From Demequina sp. NBRC 110055 (GTDB lineage: Bacteria; Actinomycetota; Actinomycetes; Actinomycetales; Demequinaceae): a DNA stretch of 64,000 nt. The DNA lies in the NCBI RefSeq assembly GCF_002090135.1, contig NZ_BBRL01000006.1, forward strand, positions 124,001-188,000. Direction: 5' to 3'. Positions 4,285 to 63,886 of this stretch are shown here, in pieces (positions within the stretch are counted from its first letter, which is position 1; the number at the start of each line of letters is the position of its first letter). The translations under genes were made by a program, and so were the position numbers. The notes under the pieces are model-generated. The model was given only the letters and a program-made list of their open reading frames with translations, had not been told where the DNA came from and did no database searches.

Positions 4285-5805
4285 ATGGTCAATCCGCTGC
4301 GCGATCCGCGCGACCGCCGCCTCCCCCGCATCGCGGGCTCGTCCGGCCTGGTGATGTTCGGCGTCACCGGCGACCTCGCCCGCAAGAAACTCATGCCCGC
4401 CGTGTACGACCTTGCGAACCGCGGCCTCCTGCCGCCCGCTTTCGCACTCACGGGATTTGCGCGACGCGAATGGGACCGCGAGGACTTCGAAGAGGTCGTC
4501 TACGACTCCGTGAAGAAGCACGCACGGACGCCGTTCCGTGAGGAGACGTGGAAGCAGCTCGCGGAAGGCATCCGGTTTGTCCAGGGCACCTTCGACGACC
4601 CCGACGCCTTCCGTCGCCTGCGCGAGACCGTCGAGGAGCTCGACGAACGTCGAGGCACGGGCGGCAATCACGCCTTCTACCTGTCGATCCCCCCGTCCGC
4701 GTTCCCCCAGGTCCTCACGCAACTACGCGACTCGGGCCTGTCGGACGCCAAGGACGGCGCGTGGCGCCGCGTGGTGATCGAGAAGCCCTTCGGGCAGGAC
4801 CTTGAGACCGCCAACGCGCTCGACGCCGTCGTGTCGGAGGTTTTCCCGCCCGACTCCGTGTTCCGCATCGACCACTACCTGGGCAAGGAGACGGTCCAGA
4901 ACCTGCTGGCGCTGCGCTTCGCGAACCAGCTGTTCGAGCCCATCTGGAACAGCCAGTATGTCGATCACGTGCAGATCACCATGGCCGAGGACATCGGCAT
5001 CGGCTCGCGCGCTGGCTACTACGACGGTATCGGCCAAGCCAGGGACGTCATCCAAAATCACCTCTTGCAGCTGTTCGCGCTGACTGCGATGGAGGAGCCG
5101 GCGACGTTCGACGCCGATGACCTGCGAGGCGAGAAGGAAAAGGTCCTGCGCGCCGCCAAGCTGCCCGCCGACCTCGACACGAACACGGCCCGCGGGCAGT
5201 ATGCCGCCGGCTGGCGCGGCGGCGAGCAGGTGGGCGGCTACCTCGACGAGGATGACATCCCGTCGGACTCGATCACCGAGACATACGCCGCGATCCGCCT
5301 CGACGTCCCCAACCGCCGTTGGGCTGGCACCCCGTTCTACCTGCGGGCAGGCAAGCGCCTGGGCCGTCGCGTCACCGAGATCGCGCTCGTGTTCAAGAAG
5401 GCCCCGAGCCCGTACTTCCAGGACATCGAGGGCACCGAGGCGGGCAACAACGCGCTCGTCATCCGCGTGCAGCCCGACGAGGGCGTGACGCTGCGCTTCG
5501 GCTCCAAGGTGCCCGGATCTCAGATGGAGGTGCGCGACGTCACGATGGACTTCGGCTACGGAAACGCCTTCACCGAGTCCTCGCCCGAGGCGTACGAACG
5601 CCTCATCCTCGACGTGCTACTCGGCGACCCGCCACTGTTCCCCCGCCACGAGGAGGTGGCCTTGTCGTGGAAGCTGCTCGACCCGGTCATCGCGCACTGG
5701 GAAGGGTCGGGTACCCAGCCGGAGCAGTACCGCTCCGGGACATGGGGCCCAGCGAGTGCCGATGCCATGTTGGCCAAGGACGGACGCGTCTGGAGGCGCC
5801 CATGA
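4285..5805 (+). CDS. zwf: Glucose-6-phosphate 1-dehydrogenase
   Basis: Oxidises glucose 6-phosphate to 6-phosphogluconolactone with NADP reduction, the entry of the oxidative pentose phosphate pathway. 506 residues, normal length. The N-terminal Rossmann motif is FGVTGDLARKKLMPA (residues 25-39), EKPFGQDL follows, and the substrate site RIDHYLGKETVQN starts at Arg194 with catalytic-region His197. The start is ATG 4285 after AAGG; a TAAGGT hexamer 5 bases upstream also allows a near-leaderless mRNA. Its stop overlaps the opcA start by 4 bases (ATGA), so the two are translationally coupled, fitting OpcA as the G6PD partner. Confidence 0.97.
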   Translation: MVNPLRDPRDRRLPRIAGSSGLVMFGVTGDLARKKLMPAVYDLANRGLLPPAFALTGFARREWDREDFEEVVYDSVKKHARTPFREETWKQLAEGIRFVQGTFDDPDAFRRLRETVEELDERRGTGGNHAFYLSIPPSAFPQVLTQLRDSGLSDAKDGAWRRVVIEKPFGQDLETANALDAVVSEVFPPDSVFRIDHYLGKETVQNLLALRFANQLFEPIWNSQYVDHVQITMAEDIGIGSRAGYYDGIGQARDVIQNHLLQLFALTAMEEPATFDADDLRGEKEKVLRAAKLPADLDTNTARGQYAAGWRGGEQVGGYLDEDDIPSDSITETYAAIRLDVPNRRWAGTPFYLRAGKRLGRRVTEIALVFKKAPSPYFQDIEGTEAGNNALVIRVQPDEGVTLRFGSKVPGSQMEVRDVTMDFGYGNAFTESSPEAYERLILDVLLGDPPLFPRHEEVALSWKLLDPVIAHWEGSGTQPEQYRSGTWGPASADAMLAKDGRVWRRP

Positions 5806-9378: not shown

Positions 9379-10569
9379 TCAGTCCTCCAGTACGGCCAGG
9401 CCCGGCAGGACCTTGCCCTCAAGCAGTTCGAGCGACGCGCCGCCGCCCGTGGAAATGTGGCTGAAGCCGGCCTCGTCGTAGCCCAGGCGACGCACAGCCG
9501 CGGCCGAGTCGCCACCGCCGACCACCGAGAAGCCGTCGGCGTCGATCATGGCCTGCGCGACGGCACGCGTGCCGCCCTCGAAGGCCTCGAACTCGAACAC
9601 GCCCATGGGGCCGTTCCACACAATGGTCTTCGCATCGGCAATCTTCGAGGCGAACAGTGCGCCCGACTCGGGGCCGATGTCCAGGCCCATCCAGCCGTCC
9701 GGAATCTGGTCGGCGGGAACGGTCTTGTGCTCGGCGTCCGCGGCGAACGCCGCGGCGACCTCAATGTCGGTGGGCAGGACGATCTCGACGCCGTTGGCCT
9801 CAGCGGTCTCGAGGTATCCCTTGACGGTGTCGATCTGGTCCTCCTCGAGCAGCGAGGAGCCGACCTCGTAGCCCTTGGCCTTGAGGAAGGTGAACACCAT
9901 GCCGCCACCGATGAGGAGGCGGTCGGCCTTGGTCAGCAGGTTGCCGATGACGCCGAGCTTGTCGGATACCTTCGAGCCACCGAGCACGACCGCGTAGGGA
10001 CGCTCGGGGTCGGTCGTGGCGCGCGAGAGGGAGACGACCTCCTTCTCGACCAACGTGCCGGCCGCGGCGGGCAGGATCTGAGCGACGTCGTAGACCGATG
10101 CCTGCTTGCGGTGAACCACGCCGAAGCCATCGGACACGAACACGTCCGCGAGGGCGGCCAGTTCCTGCGCGAGCGCCTGGCGCTCTTCGTCGACCTTGGA
10201 GGTCTCGCGGGCGTCGTAGCGGACGTTCTCGAGCATGGCGACCTGGCCGGACTCGAGTGCGGCGACGGTCTGCTTGGCCGAGTCGCCGACGAGGTCTGCG
10301 GCGAGGGTCACGGGGCGTCCGAGCAGCTCCGACAGGCGCGCAGCGGCGGGTGCGAGGGAGTACTCGGGCTTGGGCTCGCCCCCGGGGCGGCCCAGGTGGG
10401 CGGTCACGATGACCGCGGCGCCCGCGTCGAGCAGCGCCTGAATGGTGGGCACCGACGCGCGCACGCGGCCGTCGTCGGTGATCGTGGTGCCGTCGAGCGG
10501 CACATTGAGGTCGGAGCGGACCAGCACCTTCTTGCCGGTCAGGTCTCCCAGTCCTGCGATGGTCTTCAT
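9379..10569 (-). CDS. pgk: Phosphoglycerate kinase
   Basis: Transfers phosphate from 1,3-bisphosphoglycerate to ADP. 396 residues. The N-terminal substrate domain has [13 protein letters not shown] and the [11 protein letters not shown] loop; the C-terminal nucleotide domain has [20 protein letters not shown] and the GGGDSAAAV phosphate loop. I chose ATG 10569, which has AAGAGGA 6 bases upstream; an in-frame ATG nine codons earlier has no such site. Downstream of gap and coupled to tpiA. Confidence 0.97.
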
Positions 10570-10600
10570 GTCAATCCTCTTGCCTTGTCGTGACATGGCA

Positions 10601-10631
10601 ACGCCCGCACACGCAGCGCGTGCGCGGGCGT
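10601..10631 (-). terminator. Hairpin between gap and pgk
   Basis: A 14-bp stem with one mismatch (10601-10614 with 10618-10631) and a 3-base loop, 28 bases past the gap stop. It probably lets gap be expressed more strongly than pgk-tpiA. Confidence 0.7.
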
Positions 10632-10659
10632 CACCACGATCAGTTCCCGTAGGGGTGGA

Positions 10660-11775
<1,116 letters not shown>

Positions 11776-11825: not shown

Positions 11826-12809
11826 TCAGTCGAGATCGAGGATCTCCTGGTTGATGCCCGCCTCGGTGTCGGGAATACCCAACTCTTCGGCCCGCTTGTC
11901 CGCAGTCGCGAGCAAGCGGCGGATACGCCCCGCGACGGCGTCCTTCGTCAGCGGCGGGGTTGCCAGCTTGCCGAGTTCCTCGAGCGACGCATCCCGGTTG
12001 GCCAGGCGGAGCTCGCCGGCCTCACGCAGGTGCTCGGGGACGTCGTCGCCGAGGATGTCGAAGGCGCGCGCCACCCGTGCTCCGGCGGCCACCGCCGCCT
12101 GCGCAGAGCGACGCAGGTTCGCGTCGTCGAAGTTCGCCAAGCGGTTGGCGGTGCCGCGCACCTCGCGTCGTGTGCGCTTCTCTTCCCATTCAAGGACGGA
12201 GTCGTGAGCGCCGATGCGGGTCAACAGCTGCGCGATCGCCTCGCCGTCGCGAATGACGACCCTGTCCACTCCCCTGACCTCACGCGACTTGGCGGAGATG
12301 CCGAGGCGGCGCGCGGCGCCCACGAGGGCCAGCGCGGCCTCCGGGCCGGGCGACGTCACCTCGAGCGAGGACGAGCGGCCTGGCTCGGTGAGCGAGCCGT
12401 GGGCAAGGAACGCTCCTCGCCATGCGGCGACCGTGTCGTCCACGGAGCCGCCGACCACCTGCGGCGGCAGTCCACGGACGGGTCGCCCGCGCTGGTCGAG
12501 GAGGCCCGTCTGGCGTGCGAGGGACTCGCCCTCCTTGACGATGCGGACCACGTACCTGTTGCCCTTCTTGAGGGCACCGCCGGAGACGACGATGATCTCG
12601 CCCACCAAGCCATAAACCTCGTGGATGAAGGCGCGCAGTCGGCGCGCCCCGGCGGCGGTGTCCAGTTCGGCCTCGATGACGATCCGGCCGCTCACAATGT
12701 GCAGTCCGCCGGCAAAGCGGAGCATCGTGGCGACCTCTGCCTTTCGAGCCGAGAGTTTATCGACCGCGACCCGCGCGAGTTCGTCCTTCACCTGTGCCGT
12801 CAAAGCCAT
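11826..12809 (-). CDS. whiA: DNA-binding protein WhiA
   Basis: Transcription factor of Gram-positive bacteria, which in sporulating actinobacteria acts with WhiB on division genes. 327 residues: an N-terminal homing-endonuclease-like fold (from [14 protein letters not shown] to about 210) and a C-terminal helix-turn-helix containing [18 protein letters not shown] chose ATG 12809; the open frame extends 61 codons further into yvcK but is not WhiA-like there. No Shine-Dalgarno is visible, but CACAAT lies 6 bases before the ATG. It is the last gene of the conserved uvrC-rapZ-yvcK-whiA string, 16 bases after yvcK. Confidence 0.95.
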
Positions 12810-12825
12810 GCGCTGATTGTGCCAT

Positions 12826-13776
12826 TCATCGGGCGGACGCGAGGCCTCCTGGTCTCTCTGAGGCCAGGAGGGAGCGCAACGTTTCGCGCAGCCGCTGGGG
12901 GTCGTGAGCGTGGGCCTGATACGGATCGCGCACGTCTGCCACCACGAGCCGGGCGCCCCACGCCGCGACCTCCTCACGTAGCCCGGGATCATCGGCGTGA
13001 GTCACGTCCACCACGACCTGGGCGGGGCGGAACTCCGGCGTGGCCGCGCGCAAGGCGCGAATGTCATCCACCCGGCTCATTCCCTCCGTCTCGACGTCCT
13101 CATCGCCGACGTTGAGGATGACCGTCGCCTTCGGACCCGCCACGACGAGCGCCGCGGCCACCGGTGCCACGCAAAAGTGAGTCAGGACCGAGGTGTACCA
13201 GGAACCGGGACCCAGGACCACGGCATCGGCCTTACGGATGGCCTGCAGAGTCGCGTCTGGCACCCGGGGCGTGGCCGGCTCGAGTGCGAGCGACCGGACG
13301 CGCCCGGCCGCCGTGGCCACCGCGACCTGTCCGCGCACGACCTCGATGCCGCGCGCCGTCTCCACCTCCGCACGTACCGTGAGAGGCTCCTCGGAGACGG
13401 GCAGGACACGGCCATGGGCCTGGAGGAGGCGCGCCACCCAGTCGAGGCCCTCGACCACGTCGCCGCTGCGGTCCCACAGGGCGGCGATCAGCAGGTTGCC
13501 GAGCGCGTGACCGTCGAGCGGCCCCTCGGTCGTGAAGCGCCATTGCAGGACGTCGCGCCAGGTCGTACCCCAGGCGGAGTCACCGCACAGCGCGGACAGC
13601 GCCATGCGGAGGTCGCCGGGAGGCACGATGCCCATTTCTGCGCGCAGGCGGCCGGAGGATCCCCCGTCGTCGGCGACCGTCACGACGGCAGTCAGGTCGT
13701 CGGTGAACCCACGCAGCGCCGTCAGCGAGTGGTAGAGGCCGTGCCCTCCCCCGAGCGCCACCACCGCGAGACTCAT
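12826..13776 (-). CDS. yvcK: YvcK/CofD-like uridylyl-sugar-binding protein
   Basis: Member of the YvcK (gluconeogenesis factor, CofD-like) family, which binds UDP-sugars and affects cell-envelope growth and carbon use. 316 residues. The family signatures are [13 protein letters not shown] at the N terminus, [13 protein letters not shown] and [14 protein letters not shown], then the [11 protein letters not shown] loop. Its ATG overlaps the rapZ stop by 4 bases, so they are coupled. The exact cellular function in this organism is not shown by the sequence. It contains one copy of the 14-mer repeat (13218-13231). Confidence 0.92.
13218..13231 (-). repeat. Dispersed 14-mer GGCCGATGCCGTGG, copy 1
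   Basis: Exact copy of the 14-mer, minus orientation, inside yvcK. See the finding on the repeat family. Confidence 0.7.
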
Positions 13777-14696
13777 GCCTGCGGCCGGTCCCGGTGCGTC
13801 ACACGCACGTCGTAGCCGCGCTCACGTAGCCGAACGCCCAGCTCCTCTGCGATGGCGACCGACCGATGCTTACCGCCGGTGCAGCCCACGCCGATCGTGA
13901 CGGAGGGCTTGTCGTGGGCCCGGTAATGCCGCAGCGCACCGTCGATCACTCCCGTGTAGCCCGCGAGAAAGTCCTCGGCGCCCACGCCGCCGAGCACGTA
14001 CGCACGCACCCGCTCATCAAGGCCCGTCAGGGGCTTGAGTTCGGGGTCCCAGTGGGGGTTCGGGAGGAAGCGGACGTCGGCCACGAAGTCGGCGTCGGCG
14101 GGGATGCCGTTCTTGAAGCCGAACGACTGCACGTTGACGTGGAGCTGGGGAACCTCGGCCGCAATCTGCTCGGTGATGAGCTCGCGCAGCTGGTGCACGT
14201 TGAGGCGTGACGTGTCGATCACGTGGTCCGCCTCGCCGCGAATCGCCGCGAGCTTGGCCCGTTCACGGCCGATGCCCTCCAGGATCGTCCCGTCCCCTTG
14301 TAGCGGGTGCGGCCGGCGCGCCTCCTCGAAGCGTCGCACGAGCGCGCCGTCGGATGCATCGAGGAACACCATACGCACGCTCGCGCCGCGCTCCTCGAGG
14401 TCGGCCACCACGGGCGCGAGGTCCTCGAAGAAGGCCCCGCCCCGGGCATCGACGACGGCGGCGAGTTTGCGGGTCGCATCGGAGCCCACCACCGATTCGA
14501 CGAGTCCAGCCAGCAGGTGGGGCGGGAGGTTATCGACGACATACCAGCCCAGATCCGCGAGCACCGCAGCCGCCCGGGTCCGACCGGCGCCCGACATCCC
14601 GGTCAGCACCAGCAGCTCGGAGGGTCGCTCAGTGGTCTCGAGGCGTAGCCGCGGGATCCCCGAGGGATAGGTCGGCGGATGAGTGTCGTCCGTCAT
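13773..14696 (-). CDS. rapZ: RNase adapter / nucleotide-binding protein RapZ
   Basis: P-loop protein of the RapZ (YvcJ) family. In E. coli it guides RNase E to the GlmZ small RNA; in actinobacteria the role is not settled. 307 residues: Walker A GMSGAGRT at 33-40 (Arg instead of the usual Lys, common in this branch), [10 protein letters not shown], and the C-terminal [15 protein letters not shown] motif. Coupled by 4-base overlaps to uvrC upstream and yvcK downstream. Confidence 0.93.
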
Positions 14697-55422: not shown

Positions 55423-56189
55423 CGCACCTCAATCCCGGCTGCGCGCATGTGGTCTTTCACCTGCGTGATGGTGAGCACACCGAAGTGGAAGACGCTCGCC
55501 GCGAGGACGGCGTCGGCGCCGGCGCGGGCCGCCTCGACGAAGTGCTCGGCGGTCCCCGCGCCGCCCGAGGCGATCAGGGGAATCGTCACCTGCTCACGCA
55601 CGCGCGCGAGCATGTCGAGGTCGAAGCCGTCGTTGGTGCCGTCGGCGTCCATGGAGTTCAGGAGGATCTCGCCCGCACCGAGTTCCTGGCCGCGGCGCGC
55701 CCACTCGACGGCGTCGATGCCCGTGCCGTGGCGCCCGCCGTGCGTGGTCACCTCGAAGCCCGACTCAGTGACGGTATCTCCCGTGCAGCGACGCGCGTCC
55801 ACCGACAACACCAAGACCTGACTGCCAAAGCGTGCGGCGATCTCGGAGATCAGCTCGGGACGCTGGATCGCGGCGGTGTTCACGCCCACCTTGTCGGCGC
55901 CCGCGCGCAGCAGACGGTCGACGTCCTCGGGCGAGCGCACTCCCCCGCCCACGGTCAGCGGCACGAACACCTGGTCCGCGGTGCGGCCCACGACGTCATA
56001 GGTCGTGGCGCGGTCGGAGGACGAGGCGGTCACGTCGAGGAACGTCACCTCGTCTGCGCCGGCGGCCCCGTACGCCGCCGCGAGTTCTACGGGGTCGCCC
56101 GCGTCGCGCAGCTCAACGAAATTCACACCCTTGACGACGCGCCCAGCGTCGACGTCCAGGCAGGGGATCACCCTGACGGCAGCGCCCAC
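55419..56189 (-). CDS. hisF: Imidazole glycerol phosphate synthase subunit HisF
   Basis: Cyclase that forms imidazole glycerol phosphate and AICAR, using ammonia from HisH (not here). 256 residues, TIM barrel. The catalytic Asp12 in [17 protein letters not shown] and the second catalytic Asp in VLSVDAR are present, with [10 protein letters not shown] and [10 protein letters not shown] phosphate loops. The start is GTG 56189 after GGAGGAATA; it overlaps the upstream stop by one base. Confidence 0.95.
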
Positions 56190-57103
56190 TATTCCTCCGA
56201 GTTCCACACGTCGAGGATGTCCACGACGAAAACCATCGTGCCACGCGACGGATAACCGATCGACCCAGGCACGACGATCTCGACGCGAGACCCTTCGGTC
56301 TGATCCAAGATGCCTTGCGTGAGTCCCTGCACGGCCTCGCCCGCATCCATGTCGAGCGTCAGGGGCTCCTGGTCGGCACCCCACGACGAGCGGAACAGGT
56401 CGCCCGCCTCCCAGGCGCCGTCCTCGTCGTTCTCCCCGTCCGCGTAATAGAAGGCGGCGTAGTTCACGAGCACGCGCGACGTGGTCGTCACCTGCGGGCC
56501 CACTCCCCTGATGAGGGTGGCCACATGAAGGTCAGAGACAACGGGGGCGTCCTCGGGGATCTCGACGACGGGTTGCCCGTCGGCCCCCATGCTGACCGCA
56601 GGCATACCCGCCGGCGCGTCAGCCTGCTGCCCCACCGCGGTCTCCGCGCGCACGTCCATCAGAATCGTGACGGGCGGCTGGTCCTCGCCGCCGCTGCCCG
56701 GCGACACCGTCAGCACACGCGCGCCGACGTTGAGGTCGATGAGCGTCGCGTACAGCGACTCACCGAGCGACTCCTCCGTGAGCACAAACGACTGCGGAAG
56801 CCCGTCGAAGGTGTTGACCACCGGGGTCGCATCGTCGAGCGACTCTCCGTAAAGGTCGAGCAGCAGCGGCTGCCCATCCTCGAGAGGCGCGCCCTCCCCG
56901 TTCCACAGCAGCAATGACTGTTCCTGCGCGTAGTCGAGGCCTGGCTCGAAGGTCAGCGACGGCGCGAGCGTATCCGACTGTCCCACCACGATGTCGGAGA
57001 TATCACCCGCCGGGGTCGCGGTCACCGACGGGTCGGGATCGGGGCCCGTGCACGCGGACAGCGCGACGACCACACCGAGGGCGCAGGCGAGCAATCGACG
57101 CAT
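56189..57103 (-). CDS. FKBP-type peptidyl-prolyl isomerase lipoprotein
   Basis: 304 residues with a lipoprotein signal ending in LSAC (Cys18). The remainder contains two FKBP-like segments: a weak N-terminal one (about 60-160) and a clearer C-terminal one with [59 protein letters not shown]. It is therefore a surface chaperone/PPIase candidate; several FKBP active-site aromatics are not obvious in the first copy. ATG with AAGGACG. It follows pafA, as in many actinobacteria. Promoter TAGACT at the pafA stop. Confidence 0.85.
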
Positions 57104-57136: not shown

Positions 57137-57142
57137 AGTCTA
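57137..57142 (-). promoter_or_regulatory. Predicted -10 overlapping the pafA stop codon
   Basis: TAGACT on the minus strand, whose first three bases are the pafA stop TAG. Expected transcript start near 57130, with a 27-base leader including AAGGACG before the FKBP gene. Confidence 0.4.
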
Positions 57143-58522
57143 GCCGCGCTCGTCGGCGCTGAGGGACTCCAGGAGCGTGTCGACGCGGGCGTCCTCGTGG
57201 CGGAAAGGGTCCTTGAGAAGCACCGTTTTGCTCGCGCCCGTGAGCTTCAGGTGAACCCAGTCGACGGTGTAGTCCTGACCCGACGCGGAGGCGGCCTCGA
57301 CGAACGCCCCTCGCAGTTTTGCGCGCGTGCTCTGGGGCGCCACTGTGCGGGCACGCTCGATCGCCGCGTCCTCCACCACCGTGCGGACCAGCCCCTGCGA
57401 CACCAGACGGTGATACAGGCCCCGCTCGGGCGACACATCGTGGAACGCGAGTTCGAGTCGCGCGAGCCGCGGGTCGTCGAGGCGGCAACCCAGGCGGGCC
57501 TGGTAGCGCTGGATGAGCCGCCACTTGATGGCCCAGTCGAGTTCGGTGTCGACGAGCGAAGGGTTCTGTTCTCGCACCGCACGAATGCCCCGCTCCCACA
57601 GGTCGAGGATGCTTTCCACCTCTGCGGTGGGCTCGATCACGTCACCCACGTGCGCGCGCACCACATCGAGGTACGACTGTTGGATCTCGACCGCCGTGAG
57701 GTGGCGGCCGTCGGCGAGCTCGACCGTCGCGGCTCCCGTGATGTCGTGCGCGACCGCGCGGATGGCCTGCATCTCGTTGGCCAGCGTGAGGTCGGGCAGG
57801 CGCACGTGCGCCTCCATGAGCCGCAGCATGAGATCGGTCGCGCCGACCTTCAGTAACGTGGTGGGCTCGGCCATCGTCGAGTCGCCGACGATGACGTGCA
57901 TGCGGCGGTACAGCTCGGCGTTCGCGTGAGGCTCATCGCGCGTGTTGATCATGGGACGCGAGCGGGTGGTCGCGGACGACAGCCCCTCCCACATGTGATC
58001 CGCTCGCGGGCTGAACGAATAGTGGGCGCCCTGCGGCGTGCGGGTAATGGTGCCAGCGCCGGTCACAATCTGACGGGTGATGAGGAACGGCAGCAGCGCC
58101 GAGGCGAAGGCACGGAAATCCGCACGCCGGCGCACCAGGTAGTTCTCGTGGCAGCCGTAGCTGTTGCCGGCCGAGTCGGTGTTGTTCTTGTACAGGTGGA
58201 TCGTGCCGTCGACGCCGGCGTCACGCAGGCGCTGCTCTCCCTCGGCGACGAGGTCCTGGACGATGCGCTCGCCGGCCTTGTCGGAGGCGATGAGGTCCGT
58301 GAGCGAGTCGCATTCGGCGGTCGCATACTCGGGGTGCGCACCCACGTCGATGTACAGCCGCGACGCGTTGGTGAGGAATACGTTGGACGAGCGGCCCCAT
58401 CGCACCACGGAGTGGAACAGGTGCCCGGCCACTTCTTCGGGCGTCACGCTGCGGGCGCCGGGCGCGTCGAGGTGCAGGCCGAACTCGGTCTCCAGCCCGA
58501 AGATGCGCCGGGCGGCGGGCAC
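57140..58522 (-). CDS. pafA: Proteasome accessory factor PafA (Pup ligase)
   Basis: Ligates the C-terminal glutamate of Pup to lysines of target proteins, using ATP. 460 residues of the glutamine-synthetase-like carboxylate-amine ligase fold: FGLETEFGLH at the N terminus (catalytic Glu region), YKNNTDSAGNSYGCHENYL, INTRDEPHANAELYRRMHVIVGDSTM. The start is GTG 58522; there is no ATG in frame before the pup stop. It begins 47 bases after pup. In related genomes prcB and prcA often come between pup and pafA; here they do not. Confidence 0.95.
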   Translation of the reverse strand: MPAARRIFGLETEFGLHLDAPGARSVTPEEVAGHLFHSVVRWGRSSNVFLTNASRLYIDVGAHPEYATAECDSLTDLIASDKAGERIVQDLVAEGEQRLRDAGVDGTIHLYKNNTDSAGNSYGCHENYLVRRRADFRAFASALLPFLITRQIVTGAGTITRTPQGAHYSFSPRADHMWEGLSSATTRSRPMINTRDEPHANAELYRRMHVIVGDSTMAEPTTLLKVGATDLMLRLMEAHVRLPDLTLANEMQAIRAVAHDITGAATVELADGRHLTAVEIQQSYLDVVRAHVGDVIEPTAEVESILDLWERGIRAVREQNPSLVDTELDWAIKWRLIQRYQARLGCRLDDPRLARLELAFHDVSPERGLYHRLVSQGLVRTVVEDAAIERARTVAPQSTRAKLRGAFVEAASASGQDYTVDWVHLKLTGASKTVLLKDPFRHEDARVDTLLESLSADERG

Positions 58523-58569
58523 CTCGAGCGGCGCGGGGACGTCGGTCGCGAAGCCGGTGGTGGTCGCGG

Positions 58570-58749
58570 CTACTGCCCGCCCTTCTGCACGAAGGAGCGC
58601 ACAAACTGCTCGGCGTTGGTCTGCAACGAGTCGTCGATCTCATCCAGCAGCGAGTCGAGTGCGTCGGTGCTCTCCGCCTTGGCGGGAGCGGGCGCCGGCT
58701 CGGGCGCGTCGTCTTCGTACGGCTGGCCTGAGGAGAATGTCTGACCCAT
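58570..58749 (-). CDS. pup: Prokaryotic ubiquitin-like protein Pup
   Basis: 59-residue, mostly disordered tag protein: acidic middle (APEPAPAPAKAESTDALDSLLDEIDDSLQTNAEQF) and the C-terminal helix ending VRSFVQKGGQ. The terminal Gln59 needs deamidation by Dop before ligation. The start is ATG 58749. There is no Shine-Dalgarno; TAGACT lies 7 bases upstream, so the message is predicted to be leaderless. Between dop and pafA. Confidence 0.97.
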   Translation of the reverse strand: MGQTFSSGQPYEDDAPEPAPAPAKAESTDALDSLLDEIDDSLQTNAEQFVRSFVQKGGQ

Positions 58750-58756
58750 ACCGGGA

Positions 58757-58762
58757 AGTCTA
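58757..58762 (-). promoter_or_regulatory. Predicted -10 element of pup
   Basis: TAGACT on the minus strand, 7 bases before ATG 58749. The 14-mer repeat copy at 58771 lies just upstream, in the spacer/-35 region. Confidence 0.5.
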
Positions 58763-58770
58763 GACCGGGC

Positions 58771-58784
58771 GGCCGATGCCGTGG
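58771..58784 (+). repeat. Dispersed 14-mer GGCCGATGCCGTGG, copy 5
   Basis: Exact copy, plus orientation, in the dop-pup gap, overlapping the expected -35 area of pup. Identical to copy 3 over 20 bases. Confidence 0.7.
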
Positions 58785-58796
58785 TCGCCCGCCGCG

Positions 58797-60317
58797 TCAC
58801 GCTCCCCTGATGAGGCGGTCGAGGACGGGGTGGCTCGCGCGATGCGGGTCGTCGAGGTGGACCACCTCAAGGTGATCGCCGTCGAGGTCAAGCACCACCG
58901 AGGACCATCCCGCCGCATCGACGACGTCCGGGCGTGCCGCGACGACGCCGCCACGCAGGCGTGCGCGCGTGTCGGCCGGCGCGTGGGTGACGGCGCGCTC
59001 GACCTCGTGGGTATCGACGACAACGCTGACCTGACCGGCGGCCGCGAGCTTGGCGGCCCAGCCGTCGCCCAGGCGGCTCCATTGCACGTCGATCGCGCTC
59101 AGCAGCGGCGCATCCCAGGCGAGCGGCGTGGCCACGCCGTCGGAGTCGACGGTCGCATGCTTGTCACGCAGCCGGCCCAGGAGGCGAAGCTTGGCCACCC
59201 ACTCGACGTCCGCGGCGGCCTCCATGGGGTCGCGCGACAGGGCCTCGAGGACGGCCTCCCAGCGCGCAATGACGAGCGCGTCGTCCGCGTCGCCGGCGTA
59301 CGAGCGACAAATCTCGAGCAGCGCGCGCTGGATCTCGAGCGCGGTCGCGCTCTCGCCGGAGGCGAGTGGCAAGCCGGATCGCAACGTGAGGTCGCGCGAG
59401 ACCTGACCGACCGCCGCCACGGGGTCGGCGAGCACCAGCGCGTCGAGCCGCTCGTCGTCGGCTTCGATGGCGCTGAGCACGAGGGCGGTGGTGCCGACCT
59501 TGAGGAACACGGGCACCTGGAGGCAGTTCGCGTCGCCGATGATCACGTGCAGCCTGCGCCACTGGGCGCGCGTCGCATGGGGTTCGTCGCGCGTGTTGAC
59601 GATGGGCCGGCGCAGCGTGGTCTCGAGGCCCAGTTCGGCCTCCATGTAGTCGGCGCGCTGGGAGATCTGGAAACCCGCCTCCTGGCTGCGCTGTCCGAGG
59701 CCCACACGGCCGGCGCCCGTGAAGATCTGCCGCGTGACGAGGTGGGCGGTGAGCCGGGACGCGAGGGCCGAGAAGTCGACCGCGCGGTCCACGAGGAAGT
59801 TCTCATGCGTGCCGTAGCTCGAGCCCTTGCCGTCGACGTTGTTCTTGTACAGCTCGACGCGGCCGTCTTCGTCCTCGGCGTAGCGCGCTGCGGCCGCGAG
59901 CGCGATCCGGTCCCCCGCCGCGTCCCACAGCACGGCGTCGCGGGCCGAGCGCACCTCGGGACCCGAATATTCGGGGTGGGCGTGGTCCACGTAGAAGCGG
60001 GCGCCGTTGCTGAGGACGGCGTTGAGGTGCGCGGGGTCCTCCCACGAGCCACGCCGACGGCGCAGCGTGACGGCGCCGTCTTCGGGCCGGTACTCGTGGG
60101 CGTCGGTGAGCATGTCGGCCGATGCCGTGGCCCGGTCCCGTCGCTCGCCACGCTGGTCCTGGAGCGGGTCCTCGCCGCCGTAGTCCCAGCGCGTCGTGTG
60201 ACCGTTCGCGCAGCCCCGGCATGCTTCCACCAGGCGCGAGGACATCAGGATGGGGTTGGCCTGCGGACGGTCGGGGTCCGCGATGCCGTACTCGGTCTCG
60301 ATGCCGACGACCCGCAC
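58797..60317 (-). CDS. dop: Pup deamidase/depupylase Dop
   Basis: Deamidates Pup-Gln to Pup-Glu and removes Pup from targets. 506 residues, paralogous to PafA: VVGIETEYGIADPDRPQANPI at the N terminus (Glu7 region), the longer Dop-specific loop after it, YKNNVDGKGSSYGTHENFL and VNTRDEPHATRAQWRRLHVIIGDANC. The start is GTG 60317 with GGAGGG upstream, 2 bases after the arc stop. It contains one repeat copy at 60117. Confidence 0.96.
   Translation of the reverse strand: MRVVGIETEYGIADPDRPQANPILMSSRLVEACRGCANGHTTRWDYGGEDPLQDQRGERRDRATASADMLTDAHEYRPEDGAVTLRRRRGSWEDPAHLNAVLSNGARFYVDHAHPEYSGPEVRSARDAVLWDAAGDRIALAAAARYAEDEDGRVELYKNNVDGKGSSYGTHENFLVDRAVDFSALASRLTAHLVTRQIFTGAGRVGLGQRSQEAGFQISQRADYMEAELGLETTLRRPIVNTRDEPHATRAQWRRLHVIIGDANCLQVPVFLKVGTTALVLSAIEADDERLDALVLADPVAAVGQVSRDLTLRSGLPLASGESATALEIQRALLEICRSYAGDADDALVIARWEAVLEALSRDPMEAAADVEWVAKLRLLGRLRDKHATVDSDGVATPLAWDAPLLSAIDVQWSRLGDGWAAKLAAAGQVSVVVDTHEVERAVTHAPADTRARLRGGVVAARPDVVDAAGWSSVVLDLDGDHLEVVHLDDPHRASHPVLDRLIRGA
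60117..60130 (+). repeat. Dispersed 14-mer GGCCGATGCCGTGG, copy 6
   Basis: Exact copy, plus orientation, inside dop (antisense to the gene). Confidence 0.7.
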
Positions 60318-60319
60318 GC

Positions 60320-61729
60320 TCAGCCCTCCCTGAGGGTCGACGCCGCGACGGCGCGGGCCTCGGCCAGTTCCTGCTCGCAGGCGCGCTCGAGGTGCTCGGC
60401 GGTGATGCCACGCTCCCCGCCGGTGATGACGGACTTGATGGCGAGCGTCTTGGCACGGTCGACGACGTTGCGTACCAGAGCACCCGACATGTGGGCCTTG
60501 TTGGCCGGGTCGGCATACAGGCGGTCCACCGCATGCTCCGCGAGCTCGCGCACTGCGGCCTGGGCGTCGCCGCGACCGCGCTCCATGGCGGACGCGGACA
60601 GCGGCAAGTCCGCGGTGAGGTACTTGGAGAAGATGTCGCGGGCGCTCGCCGCGTCTGGACGAGAGATCTCGATCTTCACGTCCAGGCGGCCGGGTCGCAG
60701 GATGGCCGGATCGATCATGTCCTCGCGGTTCGACGCACCGATCACGATGACGTTGCCCAGCTGCTCTACGCCGTCGAGCTCGGTGAGCAGCTGCGGGACG
60801 ATGGTGGTCTCCATGTCGGAGCTCACGCCCGTGCCGCGCGAGCGGAACAGCGCCTCCATCTCGTCGAAGAACACCACGACCGGTGCACCGGAGTGAGCCT
60901 TGGCGCGGGCGCGTTCAAAGATGGTGCGGATGTAGCGCTCGGTCTCGCCCACGTATTTATTGAGCAGCTCGGGCCCCTTGACCGACAGGAAGTAGGAGCG
61001 GTCGGCGCCCACGGCATCGGCCAACGAGTGTGCGACCGCCTTCGCGATGAGGGTCTTCCCGCAGCCCGGAGGTCCGTACAGCAGGAGGCCGCGCGGCGGG
61101 TTGAGGCGGTGTTCCCGGTACAGGTCGGGGTGGCGCAGCGGCAACTCGATGGCGTCGCGGATGCGCTCGATCTGCGCCGTGAGGCCGCCGATGGAATCGA
61201 AGTCCACATCCGGCACCTCCTCGAGCAGGAGCGCCTCGACGCCGGTGCGGTCGACGCGTTCGGTGGCAAACCCGGTGCGCGCGTCGATGATGACGGTGTC
61301 GCCCTCGGTGAGGCGCTGCCGGGCGTCGCCGCCGGTGAGCATGACGACACGCTCGTCCTCGCCGCGCGCGACCACGAGCACGCGGTCGTCGTCGAGAACC
61401 TCGCGGACCAGGGCGCTCTGGCCGACCTTCTCGGCCTCCGCCACGCCGACGACCACGCTCATCGCGTTCATCAGCACCTCGTCGCCGGGCGTGAGATCCC
61501 GCGGCACGCCGGGCAGCACGGCGACGCGCAGGCGGCGGCCGCCGCTGATCACGTCGGCATGCTCGCCCGACCATTGGACGAAGGTCGCGAAGGTCTGCGG
61601 CGGGGCCGATGCCTCGGCCAGCTTCTCGCGCATCTCACCGAGCGACTGGCGTGCGGTCTCGAGCAGACGCTGTAGCTCGGCGTTGCGGGCCTGCAGGGCG
61701 GCGACGCGGTCCTGTCCCTCGGTCACCAT
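60320..61729 (-). CDS. arc: Proteasome-associated AAA+ ATPase ARC/Mpa, short form without proteasome tail
   Basis: Hexameric ring ATPase that recognises pupylated proteins. 469 residues, well below the roughly 590-610 of mycobacterial and rhodococcal forms. Present: a short N-terminal coiled coil (about 5-42) for Pup binding, the OB region (about 48-165), Walker A GPPGCGKT (219-226), Walker B VVVFFDEMEALF, the pore-loop region and the AAA small domain. Missing: the C-terminal beta-grasp domain and the terminal Gln-Tyr-Leu that docks and opens the 20S core; the protein ends STLREG. dop starts 2 bases later, so this is not an edge artefact. It overlaps trmI by one base. Confidence 0.94.
   Translation of the reverse strand: MVTEGQDRVAALQARNAELQRLLETARQSLGEMREKLAEASAPPQTFATFVQWSGEHADVISGGRRLRVAVLPGVPRDLTPGDEVLMNAMSVVVGVAEAEKVGQSALVREVLDDDRVLVVARGEDERVVMLTGGDARQRLTEGDTVIIDARTGFATERVDRTGVEALLLEEVPDVDFDSIGGLTAQIERIRDAIELPLRHPDLYREHRLNPPRGLLLYGPPGCGKTLIAKAVAHSLADAVGADRSYFLSVKGPELLNKYVGETERYIRTIFERARAKAHSGAPVVVFFDEMEALFRSRGTGVSSDMETTIVPQLLTELDGVEQLGNVIVIGASNREDMIDPAILRPGRLDVKIEISRPDAASARDIFSKYLTADLPLSASAMERGRGDAQAAVRELAEHAVDRLYADPANKAHMSGALVRNVVDRAKTLAIKSVITGGERGITAEHLERACEQELAEARAVAASTLREG
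61009..61022 (-). repeat. Dispersed 14-mer GGCCGATGCCGTGG, copy 7
   Basis: Exact copy, minus orientation, inside arc. Confidence 0.7.
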
Positions 61730-62709
61730 CAGTTCTCCCCCTCCTCGGCCATGGGGCGCGTGGCGTCACGACGCACGCGGCGGATCTTCTTGTCGGACAC
61801 GGCGCGCTCGCCCAGGTCCTCGGGCGACCAGTCTTCCTCGCCATAGGCGCCCTTGGCGGGGCGGCGCTTACGCAGCGGCGCGTCGACGCCGGGCGCCATG
61901 CGGCGCGTGGTGAGGAGGAAGCCGGTGTGGCCGATCATGCGGTGGTCGGGGCGCACGGCGAGGCCCTCGAGGTGCCAGGTGCGCACCATCGACTCCCACG
62001 CCTGCGGCTCGGTGTAGCCGCCGTGGTCCTTCAGCGCCTCCGCGAGGCGCGACAGCTGGGTGGTGGTCGCGACGTAGGCGAGCAGCACACCGCCGGGTGC
62101 CAAGGCATCGGCCGCCGCGTCGAGGTTCTCCCAAGGCGCGAGCATGTCGAGCACGATGCGGTCGACCTCACCCACCTCCGCCACGCGGTCGGCGAAGTCG
62201 CCAATCTTCAGATCCCAGGCGGGGTGCGGGCCGCCGAAGTGGAACTCGACGTTGCCACGCGCGATGTCCGCGAAGTCCTCGCGGCGCTCGATCGAGGTGA
62301 GCGAACCGCCGTCGCCCACGGCGCGCAGCAGCGACATGGTGAGCGCCCCCGAGCCCACACCCGCCTCGACCACCCGGGCGCCCGGGTAGATGTCGGCCAT
62401 CTGGATGATCTGGCCGGAATCCTTCGGGTAGATCACGGCCGCGCCGCGCGGCATGGACAGGACGTAGTCGCTCAGCAGCGGGCGCAGCACCAGGTAGTCG
62501 AAGCCCGCGGTGTTGGTGACGACCGTGCCCTCTGGCCGGCCGATGATCTCGTCGTGCGTGAACTGGCCGCGGTGCGTGTGGAAGGTCTTGCCGGCCTCGA
62601 GAATGATCGTGTGGTGGCGTCCCTTGGCGTCGGTGAGCTGCACGCGGTCGCCCGCACGCAGCGGGCCGCGGCGCTCGGCGGCGCCCGTCGGGAGTAAGGG
62701 GGAAGTCAT
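61729..62709 (-). CDS. trmI: tRNA (adenine-N1)-methyltransferase TrmI
   Basis: Makes m1A58 in the tRNA T-loop. 326 residues: N-terminal beta domain (GDRVQLTDAKGRHHTIIL), class I methyltransferase with SAM motif VVEAGVGSGALTMSL, DIVLDM-like RIVLDMLAPWENLD and a basic C terminus (LRKRRPAKG, KKIRRVRRDATR). ATG 62709 with TAGACT 7 bases upstream; GGGGGA lies directly before the ATG. Next to arc-dop-pup, as in other actinobacteria. Confidence 0.95.
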   Translation of the reverse strand: MTSPLLPTGAAERRGPLRAGDRVQLTDAKGRHHTIILEAGKTFHTHRGQFTHDEIIGRPEGTVVTNTAGFDYLVLRPLLSDYVLSMPRGAAVIYPKDSGQIIQMADIYPGARVVEAGVGSGALTMSLLRAVGDGGSLTSIERREDFADIARGNVEFHFGGPHPAWDLKIGDFADRVAEVGEVDRIVLDMLAPWENLDAAADALAPGGVLLAYVATTTQLSRLAEALKDHGGYTEPQAWESMVRTWHLEGLAVRPDHRMIGHTGFLLTTRRMAPGVDAPLRKRRPAKGAYGEEDWSPEDLGERAVSDKKIRRVRRDATRPMAEEGEN

Positions 62710-62730: not shown

Positions 62731-63873
62731 CTATTGCAGGGCCTTCATCGCATCGGCCAGCCTCACAACCCCGACGATCTCGCCGCGGTCCACCGCGACC
62801 CACACGTCGGTGCGGCCCCACCACTGCTGCAGGGCGTCGACCAGGGCGTCGCCGCCGGCCCCGGCGTCGATCGCCGCGCCGCGCGGTAGCGGCATCGTGA
62901 CCGACTGCAGACCCGTCGTCGCGCGGTCGGCCTCCTCGACCGCGTCGGTCAGTGCGGCCGGGAAGTGGCCGGCCGCGGCTCCGTCGACGGCCAGCACCAC
63001 GACCTCGACGGCGCCTGCGGCCTCGGCCGCGCTGCGCGCCTGGTCCACCGTCACGTGGTGAGGCACCGTGACGGCGGCAACGGTGAGGTCGCGCGCGGTG
63101 ACGCTGGCACGCTTGCCCAGCGCCTGCGCCACCTTGAGCGCGTTCGACGCCGCGGGCCACAGGATCGCGAACACCAGCATGGCCCACAGCAGGTCGAACA
63201 GGTCGGGGCTACGGCCACCCAGCACCGGGATCCCCAGCGCGACGACCACGACGCCGACGGCGATGACCCGGCCGGCCCACGCCGCAGCCTTCATGCCCGT
63301 GTACCGGTTGCCGGTGACGGCCCACACGATCGACTCGAGCACGCGCCCGCCGTCCATGGGGATGCCCGGCAGGGCGTTGAAGATCGCCAGCACCAGGTTG
63401 GCCCACGCCACCCACTGGACGATGAGGTAGAGCGTGACGTCGCCGAGCACCCAGTCGCGCAACGTGGGCTCAAGTGCGCCCCACGCCAGGGGTATCCAGG
63501 CAAGGCCCGCGAGTACCAGGTTCGCGACGGGGCCGGCGGCGGCCGTGACTCCCATCACCGTCGGCGTGAGCGCGCGCGCGTCGTAGCTCGTGTGGCCGCC
63601 CCAGAGCGTGAGCACGATCTCGTTCACGTCGCGCTTGAAGGAGCGGGCTGCCGCCGCGTGAGCAACCTCGTGCAGGAACACCGACACAAACAGCAGCACG
63701 GCGAGGATGAGGCCGACCGTGAAGGTACGCCTGGTCAGTTCCACCCCGCCGCTGGTCGCAAACAACAGCGCGAGGATCACCAGCATGAGAAGAGTCGAGT
63801 ACTGAACGACGATGCGAGCGCCGAAGATCCGCCCGAGTGTCAGGCCACGGGTGGGGCGCGGGGACTGCGTCAT
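62731..63873 (-). CDS. M50-family site-2-type membrane protease with CBS-like C terminus
   Basis: Intramembrane zinc metalloprotease. 380 residues: zinc motif HEVAH at 68-72 in a membrane helix, second zinc ligand in NALPGIPMDGGRVLES, further membrane helices, and a C-terminal CBS-like pair (about 255-380) ending VGVVRLADAMKALQ. This is the Rv2625c-like SpoIVFB subgroup. Substrate unknown. I chose ATG 63873, with TACGGT 7 bases upstream (leaderless) and GGAG close by; a GTG three codons earlier is in frame. Confidence 0.9.
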   Translation of the reverse strand: MTQSPRPTRGLTLGRIFGARIVVQYSTLLMLVILALLFATSGGVELTRRTFTVGLILAVLLFVSVFLHEVAHAAAARSFKRDVNEIVLTLWGGHTSYDARALTPTVMGVTAAAGPVANLVLAGLAWIPLAWGALEPTLRDWVLGDVTLYLIVQWVAWANLVLAIFNALPGIPMDGGRVLESIVWAVTGNRYTGMKAAAWAGRVIAVGVVVVALGIPVLGGRSPDLFDLLWAMLVFAILWPAASNALKVAQALGKRASVTARDLTVAAVTVPHHVTVDQARSAAEAAGAVEVVVLAVDGAAAGHFPAALTDAVEEADRATTGLQSVTMPLPRGAAIDAGAGGDALVDALQQWWGRTDVWVAVDRGEIVGVVRLADAMKALQ

Positions 63874-63880
63874 GGGCTCC

Positions 63881-63886
63881 ACCGTA
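63881..63886 (-). promoter_or_regulatory. Predicted -10 element of the M50 protease gene
   Basis: TACGGT on the minus strand, 7 bases before ATG 63873. It faces the plus-strand promoter of the next gene. Confidence 0.4.

Follow-up and report, generated by a model that had tools for sequence, protein, structure and literature searches.

The window, a 64,000-nucleotide stretch of the genome of Demequina sp. NBRC 110055, carries arc, dop, pup and pafA as a contiguous group on the minus strand, and in a profile search all four genes score above the curated NCBIfam cut-offs. The locus and its neighbours are laid out as follows.

62731–63882, minus strand: membrane M50 peptidase gene, upstream of trmI and arc (PF02163, 63.7 bits)
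61729–62709, minus strand: trmI-like tRNA methyltransferase gene (PF14801, PF08704), the upstream neighbour, outside the Pup system
60320–61729, minus strand: arc, 469 residues (TIGR03689, 624 bits against a cut-off of 504.75)
60320–60364, minus strand: 3' end of arc, encoding the tail AEARAVAASTLREG and the stop; the beta-grasp helix and strand and GQYL are missing here
58797–60317, minus strand: dop, Pup deamidase/depupylase, 506 residues (TIGR03688, 536 bits against 492)
58570–58749, minus strand: pup, 59 residues, C-terminus GGQ (TIGR03687, 66 bits against 41; PF05639 also over its cut-off)
58523–58569, minus strand: pup–pafA spacer of 47 bases, the site of prcB and prcA in 20S-bearing relatives
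57140–58522, minus strand: pafA, Pup ligase, 460 residues (TIGR03686, 656 bits against 551)
56189–57103, minus strand: FKBP-type prolyl isomerase gene, the downstream neighbour of pafA (PF00254, E 2.5e-7)

The genes are tightly packed: the first base of arc is the last base of the trmI-like gene, and two bases separate the arc stop from the dop start. The trmI-like gene adjoins arc in Demequinaceae loci also, and prcB adjoins pup in most of the named loci that carry a 20S core. A prolyl isomerase next to a Pup locus has been noted earlier, in the available text of PMC2588565. The GGQ terminus of Pup means that deamidation by Dop is needed; a GGE terminus occurs in 3 of the 17 Demequinaceae loci with pup seen (L150, L160 and L166). 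The contiguous order and the short pup–pafA spacer, which the earlier note had described from the letters of the sequence, are borne out by the coordinates and the NCBIfam scores. With pup, pafA, dop and arc present, prcBA absent and pup adjoining pafA, the locus has the make-up of proteasome-independent pupylation.

ARC belongs to the TIGR03689 family by its score, its coiled-coil helix, its two OB domains and its AAA+ motor. In an AlphaFold2 model residues 2–41 form the N-terminal coiled-coil helix; two OB domains follow (PF17758 at 46–104 and PF16450 at 108–159, both over their cut-offs), and the AAA domain spans residues 215–356 (PF00004, 131 bits). The motor motifs GPPGCGKT, FFDE, KYVG (pore loop) and RPGRLD are intact in the alignment of the window; we take the names Walker A, Walker B and aromatic pore loop to apply to them. 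Everything associated with docking to the 20S core is wanting, namely the beta-grasp domain, the C-terminal GQYL and the core itself in the genome.

According to the text available of PMC9599533, the beta-grasp domain of Mycobacterium tuberculosis Mpa has two parts, a hairpin that interrupts the helical subdomain of the AAA module and a helix with a strand further on; the 20S core is touched by the hairpin at its tip (501-ANGDK-505) and by the GQYL end; and among point mutants of the hairpin, three degrade less in vitro and two of these also in cells. ARC aligns to residues 60–559 of the 609 of Mpa, with a gap at about 485–505 and nothing past 559, and ends in LREG. Hence the earlier note was right that the 469-residue ARC lacks a C-terminal beta-grasp and GQYL; it saw only the terminal piece, and the internal hairpin is gone too. 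The loss comprises two pieces separated in sequence, the hairpin that would touch the 20S core and the terminal helix and strand.

The ARC model, built from 38 sequences, has a mean pLDDT of 74 and a pTM of 0.47, its domain arrangement being poor. It contains no strand of three or more residues past residue 333; the small AAA subdomain is helical, with one long terminal helix, and residues 361–460 have pLDDT values of 74–92 in blocks of ten. A Foldseek search with the model returned Mpa chains as the closest solved structures, with whole-chain rmsd values of 16–19 Å for the first ten, a poor superposition that arises because the arrangement of domains in the model is unsure.

The assembly of this genome (2.82 Mb in 14 contigs, 99.89% complete) contains no match to the 20S subunit profile PF00227, nor does any of 47 genomes of its family (f1, which we take to be Demequinaceae), in agreement with the proposal of the earlier note that the core was lost while Pup, its ligase, deamidase and ATPase were kept. 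The same search does match 179 of the 346 order genomes and 129 of 158 in a sample of the class. ARC (TIGR03689) is found in 46 of the 47 Demequinaceae genomes, the one miss being a 50%-complete assembly, and no prcB was seen in any of the 17 Demequinaceae loci with pup and pafA seen, nor in any of the 6 named ones. The earlier note had named prcBA elsewhere in the genome, or a second full-length Mpa/ARC, as findings that would speak against it. Both were sought, with PF00227 and TIGR03689 respectively, and neither a hidden 20S core nor a second ARC was found; the sole other TIGR03689 match in the genome, at 152.9 bits, is an FtsH-like protein as judged by its HEGGH motif. No Cdc48-like Cpa was seen among the TIGR03689 matches of this genome, and Cpa is reportedly absent from actinobacteria without proteasomal subunit genes (available text of PMC6017811). 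The alternative activator Bpa (PF10759) matches 145 of the 346 order genomes; by the match lists, none of them is from Demequinaceae and all but one (G357) carry 20S. With PF00227 in 179 genomes, this leaves about 35 20S genomes without Bpa at the threshold used, counts that run against the statement, in the text available of PMC8223512, that every 20S-bearing species has Bpa.

The shortened ARC is common to the family. ARC of this strain shares 74–83% identity with its counterparts at six loci from Demequina or Demequinaceae, as against 57% or less with those of the 31 other named loci aligned (80 were found). The hairpin segment measures 13–14 residues in 46/46 Demequinaceae ARCs, against 31 in 33/33 ARCs from 20S-bearing genomes, and the tail after DRAK measures 40–42 residues against 71–87 in the same two sets; the 33 comprise the 30 best-scoring loci plus G321, G100 and G204, a sample that contains no 20S-bearing genome of family f7 and a minority of the remaining 20S carriers. 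A frameshift or premature stop in arc with a downstream remnant was considered and rejected: at the 9/9 loci read past the stop (seven from Demequinaceae, together with G109 and G157), dop begins a few bases on, and no trace of the domain was seen there. Two TIGR03689 matches, in G022 and G005, run through the arc stop, but their extra part lies in dop. Because the same end occurs in all 46 ARCs and the nine loci hold no remnant, the truncation is not a sequencing error.

Within Demequinaceae, the mean frequency of the commonest residue is 0.94 over 199 AAA positions, against 0.65 and 0.77 in the two stretches that follow, and positions of the coiled-coil helix are partly conserved. The tail keeps a well-conserved E..EARAVAA segment, but its final four residues vary, with 19 different forms among 46 sequences; a new C-terminal docking motif was considered and rejected, none being evident. 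Across 16 Demequinaceae loci dN/dS is 0.18 for arc, 0.14 for pafA, 0.14 for trmI and 0.20 for dop, values obtained by the NG86 method with high dS and meaningful solely as a comparison between genes. On this comparison arc is under purifying selection in Demequinaceae. By indirect signs, namely its presence, the conservation of its AAA part, its intact motifs, its partly conserved coiled coil and its dN/dS, ARC appears to be still in use throughout the family.

Is this outcome the usual sequel of losing the 20S core? By the match lists, ARC occurs in 309 and 20S in 179 of the 346 order genomes, and 130 genomes have ARC without 20S, 31 of them Demequinaceae. Among the 99 others, 74 were read (75 rows, G183 appearing twice), the remainder being 9 genomes of family f4 and 16 of f11. 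Both beta-grasp stretches are kept in 73 of these 75 rows by a length criterion (hairpin segment of at least 24 residues, W segment of at least 15), some of them strongly diverged (for example G221, G161, G301, G342, G096, G323 and G078), and a GQYL end remains in just one, G357. Both stretches are gone in G109, of family f6, which we take to be Micrococcaceae, and in G157, of family f3. Mycobacteriaceae ARCs from prcB-less loci, among which we assume Corynebacterium to be included, keep both stretches in 19/19 cases and end in GQYL in 0/19; these are the lowest-scoring of 146, with 20S sought at the locus only and one locus (L264) ending before pafA. For comparison, the hairpin segment has at least 24 residues in all 74 named loci outside Demequinaceae, of which 68 end in GQYL, three in GTYL and three otherwise. 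Judged on the sequences read, loss of the 20S core does not as a rule entail that of the beta-grasp, and most 20S-less ARCs lose just GQYL. The comparison of ARC C-termini that the earlier note had proposed thus upholds a shared end in Demequinaceae (46/46), whereas the simple rule that no 20S means no docking domain fails in 73 of 75 others.

In a core ARC tree obtained by a short search (123 rows, G158 left out), Demequinaceae form one clade, and G157 and G109 fall among the rows of their own families. A clade test on 36 chosen rows, with groups named post hoc, disfavours Demequinaceae with G157 (p-AU 0.017) and does not reject Demequinaceae with G109 (p-AU 0.325); a single loss common to all is disfavoured on the first of these counts. 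Parsimony on the 36-row tree gives three changes for beta-grasp loss. There were probably two, perhaps three, independent losses, all where 20S was not found.

Several single genomes deserve separate mention. In two members of f11, prcB lies between pup and pafA and the ARC has no GQYL: G204 (L102; arc 1059–2630, prcB 4414–5310) ends in VAAP and G100 (L103; arc 12786–14519, prcB 9919–10833) in REQV. Neither is among the listed Bpa matches, leaving a 20S core without a known GQYL activator, and loss of the GQYL tail may precede that of the 20S core. Conversely, G357 (L169, f6) has no PF00227 match and its pup adjoins pafA, yet its ARC keeps the beta-grasp and GQYL and it has a partial Bpa match (profile positions 51–161), which looks like a recent 20S loss. 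Three f3 genomes without 20S (G183, G208 and G315) have two strong ARC matches each, an ARC duplication.

Taken together, the gene content and the absences that we observe make it likely, in our judgement, that Demequinaceae retain a complete pupylation system after loss of the 20S core, in which ARC remodels or disassembles Pup-tagged proteins, acting as a free-standing unfoldase or as a helper of depupylation. By their family assignments, Dop would convert PupQ to PupE and PafA would attach PupE to lysines of substrate proteins. The coiled coils of ARC, a helix that we see in the model, would capture Pup by its helix. The ring of ATPase subunits, presumably a hexamer, would then thread Pup, with the protein attached to it, through the pore. 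The chain should then be set free rather than degraded, there being no 20S core, GQYL, hairpin or beta-grasp collar. Dop would finally strip Pup off, aided by the unfolding action of ARC. In the text available of PMC8142254, beta-grasp domains constrict the channel of ADP-bound and apo Mpa; by analogy, the exit of a ring without them should be open. Mpa stimulates depupylation in vitro, which has been proposed as a reason for retention of the ATPase in 20S-less species (PMC3511204, in the part available), and unfolding or disassembly of pupylated ferritin by ARC has been proposed for Corynebacterium glutamicum (PMC8223512, likewise). Ferritin as a target by analogy with C. glutamicum is weakened here: the one PF00210 protein that was found is Dps-like, with three NCBIfam models matching it, each of them a Dps model and each scoring below its cut-off. 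Demequina probably targets something other than a 24-mer ferritin.

Other explanations can be set against the remodelling reading. That ARC hands its substrates to another peptidase (ClpP-type, membrane-bound or other), through a surface other than the beta-grasp, would accord with the intact motor motifs, with the conserved E..EARAVAA segment before the end of the protein and with the membrane M50 peptidase gene upstream of trmI (62731–63882). M50 enzymes, however, are membrane site-2 proteases rather than chambered partners of AAA rings, and the 19 forms of the last four residues give no evidence of a docking tail; we regard such delivery as improbable. Somewhat less remote, and still unlikely, is the idea that ARC now binds Pup as a cofactor of Dop, with a trimmed, partly degenerate ring through which substrates are no longer threaded. 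The loss of a whole domain and the stimulation of depupylation by Mpa in vitro (PMC3511204) speak for it, but the motifs GPPGCGKT, FFDE, KYVG and RPGRLD have all been kept, and conservation is much stronger in the AAA part than in the two stretches that follow it. An artefact, with 20S genes in a gap of the 14-contig assembly or arc shortened by error, we consider practically negligible: it is refuted at the level of the family by the absence of PF00227 from all 47 genomes, by the common end of the 46 ARCs and by the lack of a visible prcB in the 17 loci with pup and pafA and in the six named ones.

Pup-directed remodelling by ARC remains the reading we prefer. Against it, most other 20S-less ARCs read keep the beta-grasp stretches, so that loss of the domain is not required by the proposed free-unfoldase mode. 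The earlier note had seen in this loss a further specialisation. The occurrence of the loss in all 46 Demequinaceae ARCs and the purifying selection on arc fit that view, but decay of a part left without a job describes the data equally well. It is tempting to speculate, as a tentative possibility, that ARC decays in two stages after 20S loss: GQYL would go early, the beta-grasp would usually stay for a 20S-independent job as collar or exit gate, and Demequinaceae, with at least one independent case, would have lost the collar too, leaving a free-standing, ungated unfoldase for pupylated proteins that would be the bacterial counterpart of a Cdc48-like segregase.

Demequinaceae bear on the question of what role pupylation has in the absence of a proteasome. 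Their ATPase has shed every known element of 20S docking, and the family thus offers a natural experiment on whether the system is sustained by unfolding and depupylation rather than by degradation. A contrast with those 20S-less relatives in which the beta-grasp persists would reveal the role of this domain beyond docking. Our literature search, with most subscription papers outside its scope, found no report of beta-grasp domain loss in Pup ATPases and none pairing Demequina with pupylation; seven papers are listed for Demequina together with proteasome. That pupylation occurs in species lacking the 20S core, and that their ATPases may lack the docking motif, is already known; the family-wide loss of the beta-grasp from ARC is the new element.

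Indeed, pupylation loci without prcBA, in which pup adjoins pafA and the ATPase lacks the interaction motif, have been published (PMC3511204, in the text available). According to that text, C. glutamicum and other prcBA-less actinobacteria resemble Demequina in having pup directly before pafA, in keeping arc and dop, and in possessing no 20S core and an ATPase without docking motif. The 19/19 Mycobacteriaceae ARCs from prcB-less loci retain the hairpin and a WARI-type beta-grasp segment, whereas Demequinaceae have lost both. M. tuberculosis Mpa (PDB 5kwa, 5kzf, 7px9), the best phmmer and Foldseek match of ARC, shares its coiled coil, double OB and AAA+ architecture; by comparison, Demequina ARC has no hairpin, terminal helix and strand, GQYL or 20S partner, and a shorter OB2 loop. 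More distantly, the archaeal PAN and eukaryotic Rpt ATPases share the OB and AAA folds with ARC, which scores 234 bits against the PAN model NF003069, far under its cut-off of 500; unlike ARC, they have one OB domain (PMC8142254, in the part available) and carry an HbYX end.
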